A program made the translations under genes and the position numbers. A DNA stretch of 37,244 nucleotides from Candidatus Gastranaerophilales bacterium (GTDB lineage: Bacteria; Cyanobacteriota; Vampirovibrionia; Gastranaerophilales; Gastranaerophilaceae): the NCBI GenBank assembly GCA_944323365.1, contig CALUSG010000024.1, positions 1-37,244 of the forward strand. The letters are read 5' to 3'. The stretch's first letter is position 1. The number at the start of each line of letters is the position of its first letter. The notes under the pieces were generated by a model. The model was not told where the DNA came from. It searched no databases and was given only the letters and a program-made list of their open reading frames with translations. Below, piece after piece: positions 8,216 through 32,357 of this stretch.

Positions 8216-8236
8216 GCCGCCTAAGCGGCTTTTTTA
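8214..8236 (+). terminator. Intrinsic terminator of the phosphohexomutase gene
   Basis: The stem AAGCCGC (8214-8220) pairs with GCGGCTT (8225-8231) around a CTAA loop and runs into a T-tract. It begins within the stop codon and overlaps the stop codon of the convergent prepilin-like gene. On the minus strand no U-tract follows, so it acts on plus-strand transcripts. Confidence 0.8.
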
Positions 8237-9169
8237 AAACCATGGATAATCGTCTTTTATATCCCATCCGTCAAGATATATCAAATATCCGCAAAATTGT
8301 GCTCCATCGTCTGTAGCACACAATGATTTATAATCATCTCTTGTTCTATTTGAACTGCCATGATTAAACCCTATTTGCTTACTATTTAAATCAAAATGCA
8401 TTATAAATACATCTTTGCCAGTCGTATTTGGTTTATTAAAACCATTTATATCAACTAAAAATGTAATATTTCTATACGCTCTACCTATACAATTTCCATC
8501 ATCATCCCTGTCTACACAAACATCTCCTATTCCGTTTTTTATTAATACATTATTTGATAGTAAAATTATATAACCAAAAGAACCGTAACCTCCCTCTAAA
8601 TTACCATTTGCAGGATAGTAATAGCCATCATACCCAATATAGCGAAAAGCATTATACCCATAATCTTTTGATACTTTTATATATGGCATTAAATATTTTG
8701 TTGCAAACTTTTTTATTGTTTCAGTAAAATTAAAATTAGGATCATCTGTCGGTGTTCCATATATTCCTGCTACTTCCCACGTTGACGGATCACCTTCTTT
8801 TACCTGTGCCATTGTCAATGCCTGCGACAAGATTGAATACGTCTGTTTCAACTTTGTTACTGTCTGACGCTTATTATAATTATTTATCAGTGTTGGAATA
8901 GTTAATGCCGCTACTACCCCTATTATTCCTAACGTTATTAGTACTTCCGCTAATGTAAATGCTCTTTTTCTCTTATTATAATTCTTCATACTAGAATTAT
9001 AGTTTATCTTGTATTTACAGTCAACTCCACTTAAGCTCAAATTTATTGCAGTATTTAATCTCTGCACACCTCTGAAACCCCTCTCTATTAAGCCCTGAAG
9101 GGTCGCCCCCCCCCGACGTCGCTTGCCGTTAAAACGCTTACTATATCTGTTTTTCCAACCATTTTTCAC
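8234..9169 (-). CDS. Prepilin-like protein 1 with G9-containing leader
   Basis: A type IV pilin/pseudopilin-like protein. The class III signal is KRKRAFTLAEVLITLG, with processing expected between Ala70 and Phe71 and Glu at mature position +5, followed by a hydrophobic helix. The C-terminal part has DINGFNKPNTTGKDV and ends DGWDIKDDYPWF; prepilin-like gene 2 shares both features. The frame is open from a GTG at 9169, but that GTG is only one base from AGGAG. An internal ATG at 8989 would give an ideal 10-residue prepilin leader but has no ribosome-binding site. The better-placed ATG at 9162 is in another frame and would reach this one only after a one-base shift at nine G's (9114-9106). The true start is therefore unsettled. 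It is probably exported and processed by a prepilin peptidase. No pilus assembly genes lie nearby. Confidence 0.8.
   Translation of the reverse strand: MKNGWKNRYSKRFNGKRRRGGATLQGLIERGFRGVQRLNTAINLSLSGVDCKYKINYNSSMKNYNKRKRAFTLAEVLITLGIIGVVAALTIPTLINNYNKRQTVTKLKQTYSILSQALTMAQVKEGDPSTWEVAGIYGTPTDDPNFNFTETIKKFATKYLMPYIKVSKDYGYNAFRYIGYDGYYYPANGNLEGGYGSFGYIILLSNNVLIKNGIGDVCVDRDDDGNCIGRAYRNITFLVDINGFNKPNTTGKDVFIMHFDLNSKQIGFNHGSSNRTRDDYKSLCATDDGAQFCGYLIYLDGWDIKDDYPWF
9088..9162 (-). CDS. Candidate 24-codon upstream ORF in the prepilin 1 leader
   Basis: This ATG is the best-placed start on the transcript: AGGAG lies 8 bases before it. The frame reads MVGKTDIVSVLTASDV, then three Gly from the G run, then RPFRA and TAA. 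The equivalent ORF in copy 2 has the same length, the same stop position and the pattern MVGK-x-DI...LT-x-SDVGGGR. One extra G in the run (or two fewer) would join this start to the prepilin frame. It may be a translated leader, or the 'off' reading frame of a switch. Confidence 0.45.
   Translation of the reverse strand: MVGKTDIVSVLTASDVGGGRPFRA
9106..9114 (-). repeat. Nine-G homopolymer in the prepilin 1 leader
   Basis: There are nine consecutive C on the plus strand, which is G9 in the coding direction. G/C runs longer than six occur nowhere else in the window apart from its twin at 32294-32302. It sits between the best-placed start codon and the prepilin signal, in the classic place for a slipped-strand switch. 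Confidence 0.9.
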
Positions 9170-9183
9170 TCTCCTTTTATTTT

Positions 9184-9212
9184 ATTATAAATAAAAATTC
9201 ATCATTGGTCAA
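9184..9212 (-). promoter_or_regulatory. Promoter of prepilin-like gene 1
   Basis: On the minus strand, TTGACC (9212-9207), a 17-bp spacer and a perfect TATAAT (9189-9184). The predicted transcript starts near 9177, right at the ribosome-binding site. The -35 box lies in the last codons of the upstream methyltransferase gene. Confidence 0.75.
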
Positions 9213-31436: not shown

Positions 31437-32357
31437 TTAAAGCCACGGATAATCATCTTTTATTTTCCATCCGTCACGACGGATTTTTTCAAAACAACAA
31501 AGTCCGTCACCCGTTGCAGAACAATTTGTGTTAATTTGATCATTTGTATAATCTGAGCAGCGTGCATTTATGATACCTTTACTAAAGTCTGCACTAAAAC
31601 GATAAACATCTTTTCCATAAGTATTAGGAGGTTTAATGCCGTTCAAATCGACATAAATATTCGGATTAGCATCATATATCAAAACATATTGAGTATTCCC
31701 ATCTTCATCCGTTTCTAGAACCCATCTAAAAATAGCCATGAAATAAGATATACCGTCGGCTGTGGTAAAAAATACTCGTCCTGCAGAATAGTCTGTGTAG
31801 ACAGACACATCAGTAAGATCATTATTAATACCCTTATACACAAAGCAAGAATTAGCTACCCCTTTAAACGGGCAAACTCTATTAGGAGATATCACAGGTG
31901 ATTTAAAATATTTTAAGACATATTCATCGAAAAATTGTTTTGTTTTTTCTACACTTATTGTTCCTGATAAAGAACTAGCTCCACCATCTGCATATAACAT
32001 CTTTGTCATGTTGCTTAACGTCGCATATACCTTTTGAAGTTTTGATACTGTCTGCTTCTTTTCATAATTTGCTATTAACGTAGGAATAGTTAATGCTGCC
32101 ACTACCCCTATTATTCCTAACGTTATTAATACTTCCGCTAACGTAAATGCTCTTTTTCTCTTATTATAATTCTTTGTTCCGGAATTATAGTTTATCTTAT
32201 ATTTGCAATCAACTCCCCTTAATCCCAAATCTATTGCAGTATTTAAACTCTGTGCAGTCCCAAAAACCTTGCTAATTAAGCTTTGAAGAGTCGCCCCCCC
32301 CCGACATCGCTTATCGTTAAAATGCCTGCTATATCTACTTTTCCAACCATTTTTCAC
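31437..32357 (-). CDS. Prepilin-like protein 2 with G9-containing leader
   Basis: A paralogue of the 8234 protein with the same signal (KRKRAFTLAEVLITLG), processing expected between Ala70 and Phe71. It has YVDLNGIKPPNTYGKDV and ends DGWKIKDDYPWL. The middle region is unrelated in sequence and holds more cysteines (for example CCFEKI). The open frame starts at GTG 32357, one base after AGGAG. The residue matching the internal Met61 of copy 1 is Thr here (ACA), so no ATG is available near the signal. Expression therefore depends on reading through the leader, via the GTG or via a frame change at the nine G's. It lies between rlmN and dtd. Confidence 0.8.
   Translation of the reverse strand: MKNGWKSRYSRHFNDKRCRGGATLQSLISKVFGTAQSLNTAIDLGLRGVDCKYKINYNSGTKNYNKRKRAFTLAEVLITLGIIGVVAALTIPTLIANYEKKQTVSKLQKVYATLSNMTKMLYADGGASSLSGTISVEKTKQFFDEYVLKYFKSPVISPNRVCPFKGVANSCFVYKGINNDLTDVSVYTDYSAGRVFFTTADGISYFMAIFRWVLETDEDGNTQYVLIYDANPNIYVDLNGIKPPNTYGKDVYRFSADFSKGIINARCSDYTNDQINTNCSATGDGLCCFEKIRRDGWKIKDDYPWL
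32276..32350 (-). CDS. Candidate 24-codon upstream ORF in the prepilin 2 leader
   Basis: The ATG at 32350 stands 8 bases after AGGAG and reads MVGKVDIAGILTISDV, three Gly, RLFKA and TAA. Start, length and stop coincide with the ORF in copy 1, with conserved MVGK, DI, LT, SDVGGGR and a final Ala. It leaves the prepilin frame unread unless a one-base shift happens in the G run. Confidence 0.45.
   Translation of the reverse strand: MVGKVDIAGILTISDVGGGRLFKA
32294..32302 (-). repeat. Nine-G homopolymer in the prepilin 2 leader
   Basis: Nine consecutive C on the plus strand (G9 in the coding direction), the same length and place as at 9106-9114. Confidence 0.9.

Follow-up and report, generated by a model that had tools for sequence, protein, structure and literature searches.

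The window (the whole stretch of DNA analysed, 37,244 nt, positions 1 to 37,244 of contig CALUSG010000024.1 from a Candidatus Gastranaerophilales bacterium) carries two genes for Type IV-like prepilins on the minus strand, each with a run of nine Gs near its 5' end. Both products score above the cut-off for Pfam N_methyl PF07963 (E 3.7e-6 for the prepilin ORF at 8234-9169), which places them among the class III, N-methylated prepilins. The second copy, at 32276-32350, repeats the layout of the first, also with G9; it had been missed in the sequence-only reading of the locus. The features are as follows.

9184-9212, minus strand: promoter-like TTGACC-N17-TATAAT preceding the leader (agrees with the consensus at 11 of 12 positions; assigned by consensus only)
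9171-9175, minus strand: Shine-Dalgarno AGGAG, 8 nt upstream of the ATG (a Shine-Dalgarno-ATG start is found throughout the family)
9167-9169, minus strand: prepilin-frame GTG, 1 nt away from the Shine-Dalgarno (unconserved in the family)
9088-9162, minus strand: leader ORF from ATG 9162, MVGKTDIVSVLTASDVGGGRPFRA followed by a stop, out of frame with the prepilin
9106-9114, minus strand: G9 tract, proposed to act as the switch (out of frame with G9, in frame with G10)
8234-9114, minus strand: prepilin ORF, -1 frame, open from the tract through to the stop
8996-9024, minus strand: internal promoter-like TTGACT-N17-TATAAT (TTGAC-N16-19-TATAAT in 73 of 163 family copies)
8987-8989, minus strand: internal ATG, 6 nt downstream of TATAAT, a possible tract-independent leaderless start (ACA instead in the second copy)
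8903-8974, minus strand: N-terminal methylation motif of a class III prepilin, ...KRKRA/FTLAEVLITLGIIGVVAALTIP (Pfam PF07963)
32276-32350, minus strand: leader ORF of the second copy, MVGKVDIAGILTISDVGGGRLFKA followed by a stop
32294-32302, minus strand: G9 tract of the second copy
31437-32302, minus strand: prepilin ORF of the second copy, -1 frame

On the minus strand, AGGAG (9175-9171) is separated by 8 nt from ATG 9162-9160, which opens an ORF of 24 codons ending at the stop 9090-9088; the start and the short ORF described in the sequence-only reading were confirmed at these positions. The prepilin ORF 8234-9169, as read from the GTG, is in the -1 frame relative to this ATG. The one-base frame offset of the prepilin across the G9 run was also described correctly, as was the fusion to the ATG ORF that one additional G, or the loss of two, would bring about. 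GTG 9169 lies only 1 nt from AGGAG, which is poor spacing. The claim that such a run is improbable by chance was borne out, since G8 matches four times in the window (the two G9 runs), whereas dinucleotide shuffles average 0.11 and 0 of 100 reached four. The 5' part of the reading frame contains a homopolymer beyond chance expectation, as is expected of a phase-variable gene. An Rfam search detected no RNA element at the locus, the single match being a tRNA elsewhere.

The leader-prepilin 5' region recurs in the window's own genome (1.70 Mb, 87 contigs), with about 15 strong copies as well as weaker ones, and the 5' half is conserved among the copies. Runs of at least 7 Gs in this genome sit mostly between the Shine-Dalgarno-ATG and a prepilin. 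Most of them have a length of 9 or 10, G8 is very rare and G10 is the maximum, a distribution which does not follow the decay of random runs. The scored set includes 18 G-tract prepilin loci from this genome, 14 with G9 at -1 and four with G10 in frame. A second prepilin family of the same genome has C9 out of frame (-1) at three loci and C10 in frame at one; these C-tract loci (L025, L029 with two copies, and L061) have the leader M(E/G)KVI(I/T)KAVQQVAPP and show the same frame rule with an independent tract. Two further observations concern other loci. L068, L072 and L080 form a small family with a promoter-like site close before the ATG and a G9 or G10 tract, followed by an open frame of 60-75 codons. 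A gene for a radical-SAM-like protein (L073, C46:32459) carries an uninterrupted G10, in frame, close to its start, and its reading frame stops early, at 128 aa; switching may extend to non-pilin genes.

Frame relations in 163 related loci

In total, 193 distinct tracts of at least 7 Gs were gathered; 163 of them follow a Shine-Dalgarno start and lead into a prepilin motif whose frame has no stop between tract and motif. Exactly nine Gs are present at 133 of these 163 loci, where counts of tract length are conditional on the search patterns (at least 7 Gs or at most 3 mismatches) and all data are metagenome consensus assemblies. It is known that G tracts are misreported in assemblies (PMC9187656). 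The spacing from ATG to tract is a multiple of three in 150 of 163 loci (p 8e-56). Relative to the leader, the prepilin frame is -1 at 127 loci, in frame at 30 (mostly G10) and +1 at six, and it is set by the length of the tract, as in phase-variable genes: G9 goes with -1 at 126 loci and G10 with the in-frame state at 19, the remainder being seven in-frame G9 loci and 11 others. Loci with a spacing of 3n+1 mostly retain G9, which is in frame there, and from these G9 itself looks preferred.

The sequence on both sides of the tract is variable, and its reading frame is preserved. The 0 frame of the leader is free of stops in 161 of 163 loci; the other two are interrupted by stops in 134 and 94. 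Neither the sequence nor the length of the leaders (mostly 18-48 nt) is constant, but length changes almost only in steps of three. The stretch from tract to prepilin measures 10-193 codons (median 47) and has no stop in the prepilin frame; shuffling of bases gives an expectation of 13.5 open stretches in 163, and the other two frames yield 2 and 0. When loci were taken without selection on the outcome, 139 of the 144 with enough sequence were open from the tract to the prepilin motif. The first prepilin-frame codon after the tract is Ala (GCG in 127, GCA in 31), followed by Thr or Ser (ACT or TCT), and changes in this region are mostly silent in the prepilin frame and not in the 0 frame. The base preceding the tract is C in 151 of 163 loci, and the core C-G9-CG is very conserved. 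Interruptions are very rare, also at positions outside the slippery heptamer; among the interrupted tracts, L328 and L329 are in frame and L009 and L330 stay at -1 with six Gs (GGG GGG). In L118, L125, L132, L158 and others, the region between tract and prepilin is often repeat-like (VILNLFQDL, HSPCSQSCD and RYYDTKAVRSN are examples) and reaches about 190 codons with the frame open, as if repeats could insert harmlessly into a presumably cleaved leader region.

Start codons that could bypass the tract are scarce. Of 90 copies that require a -1 shift, an earlier subset, 79 lacked any ATG, GTG or TTG upstream of the tract in the prepilin frame, such a start preceded by a Shine-Dalgarno was present in none, and in 29 a stop was located 4 nt ahead of the tract. 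Weak use of GTG 9169, one of the alternatives raised in the sequence-only reading, is therefore unsupported across the family, and this GTG was rejected as a general start. At 25 of the 127 -1 copies there is no ATG, GTG or TTG in the prepilin frame anywhere up to the FTLAE motif. Because the -1 frame is kept open from the tract and starts in that frame are often missing, ribosomes, to judge from the reading frames, must enter the prepilin frame at the tract, at least in part of the cells or part of the time. A promoter-like site just upstream of the prepilin, mostly with an ATG, is present in about 45% of copies, the first copy of the window among them, and could permit tract-independent expression.

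Tract-length alleles and distribution of the module

Two prepilin alleles that are 99.8% identical carry G9 (L347) and G10 (L312), the difference between near-identical alleles that is looked for in phase variation. In this pair, the closest, from two sister species, about 1.2 kb is the same except for one substitution and the G9/G10 difference, with G9 out of frame and G10 in frame. The flanks are about 85-88% identical, and the pair looks like a recently exchanged allele that may later have slipped. L467 and L468 (G010:C3 and G004:C12) share one prepilin gene at about 99.8% identity within sister-species flanks of about 85-88%, which suggests recent exchange of this allele alone. Of the six closest pairs, all at 96% identity or more, two differ as G9/G10 and one as G9 against an interrupted in-frame run. 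In-frame copies have a pure G10 in 19 of 20 matches, spread over many genomes, as expected of recent slippage products.

Of the 16 genomes of the genus, 13 carry the module, many of them at about 15-40 copies each. In a scan of 84,980 species genomes it was confined to Gastranaerophilales-type assemblies, apart from one GC-rich match in Rubneribacter, attributed to chance. The exact motif was present in 0 of 40 other genera sampled within the family, and no copy of the module was found in viral contigs. Of 41 genera sampled in the family, 35 do have runs of at least 9 Gs, with lengths up to G14; other genera keep G tracts but with different flanks, and poly-G contingency loci may be a family-wide habit. 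In another genus (g23), G10 out of frame is the default and G11 is in frame; a mixed sample, mostly from this genus, gave 17 loci with G10 out of frame and five with G11 in frame. In one of its genomes (G072), four leaders are paralogous, with 79-93% identity near the tract, and their runs are G9, G10, G11 and G12; G11 alone is in frame. Prepilin-type matches are extremely numerous in the family (119 in G012, 72 in G001 and 59 in G016). In G001, of the same genus as the window, four loci (L376, L380, L384 and L392) have a different leader with an in-frame TAG directly after the G9/G10 run, and the downstream open frame is +1, not -1, reaching the prepilin motif in L376.

It had been proposed that tract lengths be counted across related genomes, a constant nine Gs being what would speak against switching. 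The count showed that lengths vary: G9 in 133 of 163 loci and in-frame G10 in 19, G9/G10 alleles 99.8% identical, and G9-G12 in paralogous leaders of a related genus.

A probable default-off switch, its alternatives and known systems

The G9 run is probably a default-off phase-variation switch in the 5' part of a prepilin gene that belongs to a large paralogous set. The anatomy of the locus, the frame rule, the constraint across the family and the G9/G10 alleles in the DNA itself are the observations to be explained. Under this reading, ribosomes would start at the Shine-Dalgarno-ATG, translate a short, dispensable leader and cross the G run. With G9 they would reach a stop a few codons past the tract; addition of one G (G10) by slipped-strand DNA replication would put the leader in frame with the class III signal peptide and the prepilin, and prepilin peptidase would then cut off the entire leader. 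Because the whole leader would be removed by the peptidase, its sequence could vary freely while its frame could not. Each cell would express a small, changing subset of its pilin-like genes. From this design we infer reversible switching within the population, surface display and a benefit to the cell.

Slipped-strand phase variation, as proposed in the sequence-only reading, is the best-supported explanation, although the gene is one of a large family of fixed design in which both the constancy of G9 and the uniformity of the default-off frame exceed what the suggested likeness to Campylobacter and Neisseria would lead one to expect. MutS1 and MutL are present and intact in the genus, so that loss of mismatch repair was rejected as a cause, and intact MutS1/MutL should slow homopolymer slippage, which counts against the switch. 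The exact G9 in 133 of 163 loci and the -1 frame in 127 are likewise narrower than free drift would give, and the apparent preference for G9 at 3n+1 loci and the internal promoter-like sites with an ATG, by which some copies could bypass the tract, also weigh against the switch. Given these narrow lengths and the dominant off frame (78%), a DNA-level model needs selection for the default-off state, whereas recoding expects both directly.

Programmed recoding at a nearly fixed G9, with the DNA unchanged and a set fraction of translation entering the prepilin frame, is possible, though rather unlikely; the recoding alternatives of the sequence-only reading (-1 ribosomal and transcriptional slippage) stand to that extent. 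The ribosome would slip -1 on GGG GGG GGG, with the slow CGA codon next, or RNA polymerase would add a G. In its broad form, which we likewise hold to be a minority possibility, dozens of prepilin genes per genome would be entered by programmed slippage on G9, and DNA slippage would add only occasional constitutive G10 alleles. The slippery G GGG GGG is in the 0 frame at the 126 G9 loci with -1, and recoding would account for the near-constant tract and codon spacing, for the 25 -1 copies without any start, for the codons right after the tract (GCG/GCA, ACT/TCT), where the -1 frame is constrained and the 0 frame is not kept, and for L009 and L330, which keep -1 with GGG GGG only, where DNA slippage should be weak. 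A hairpin-like CCAGCG..CGCTGG, a candidate stimulatory element for frameshifting, is visible in some copies only. However, the frame is not fixed at the DNA level, since 30 of 163 loci are in frame, six are in the third frame and G9/G10 alleles exist; in-frame G10 copies are frequent, and one of them is separated from a G9 allele by little more than the extra G. A slippery heptamer needs no nine pure Gs, yet interruptions are very rare, and related genera show G10 or the +1 relation. A conserved slow CGA codon as frameshift trigger is weakened as well, because CAA, CGT or CAT takes its place in many copies. Programmed recoding had been the first reading of the fixed G9 and codon spacing; with the G9/G10 alleles at 99.8% identity and the G9-G12 series of G072, which behave as slipped-strand contingency loci do, the balance moved from recoding to DNA slippage.

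It is improbable that the tract goes unused, with the prepilin made from the internal promoter-like site (TTGACT-N17-TATAAT at 9024-8996) as a leaderless mRNA starting at ATG 8989, 6 nt later, MKNYNKRKRA/FTLAEVL serving as a complete prepilin leader and the G9 ORF being a relic or a separate leader peptide. Such a start could operate at the first copy of the window and a similar site occurs in 73 of 163 copies, but the site is missing in the other 90, ACA replaces the ATG in the second window copy, 25 of the -1 copies have no in-frame ATG, GTG or TTG at all, and the frame from tract to prepilin stays open in 139 of 144 testable loci. Very unlikely is a G9 element serving mainly DNA recombination or gene conversion among prepilin copies, with a secondary effect on frame, as the G-rich element near pilE serves in Neisseria: the very conserved C-G9-CG core (C before the tract in 151 of 163), the recent exchange of a prepilin gene alone between two species and the conserved 5' half among copies in the genome would fit, but a site of that kind needs no strict codon spacing or frame rule, and the G tracts of other genera have different flanks.

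If the default-off switch is real, these uncultured, non-photosynthetic gut relatives of cyanobacteria would hold a very large pilin repertoire under a uniform, one-base-short G-tract design, with a different subset of surface filaments on each cell. Poly-G switching would become testable directly from metagenome reads, and gene callers would be likely to mis-start or split many of these prepilin genes. Among the papers searched, none joined Gastranaerophilales or Melainabacteria with phase variation of pilins, and none reported phase variation in this group.

Genes with programmed -1 frameshifting or transcriptional slippage resemble these loci in having a short 0-frame ORF, a homopolymer and a long -1 ORF without a start; here, in contrast, the length of the tract varies at the DNA level in near-identical alleles, and the homopolymer is longer and purer than a heptamer requires. 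The poly-G/C phasome of Campylobacter provides a general precedent (PMC6321876), with an AT-rich genome and tracts in the 5' part of surface-type genes at many loci per genome. It involves other gene families, whereas in Gastranaerophilales one paralogous family has the same codon-spaced leader, and the MutS/MutL genes are intact. The closest described system is the G-tract switch of sortase pili in Bifidobacterium breve. In B. breve UCC2003 (bbr_0113a/b and bbr_1889a/b), in two sortase-pilus operons a G tract lies between a short, well-translated ORF and a pilin ORF that lacks a start of its own; replication slippage fuses the two ORFs, and mixtures of tract lengths were measured at the DNA level by maximum depth sequencing (PMC9187656). 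Both are gut commensals in which a well-initiated short ORF precedes a G tract, the pilin ORF beyond it is in a different frame, and tract length decides the fusion. No homology is claimed: B. breve has G11/G12 tracts in one or two sortase-pilus operons per genome, with a Sec signal in the upstream ORF, whereas Gastranaerophilales have G9/G10 tracts at about 15-40 type IV-like prepilin genes, almost uniformly one base short of the frame.
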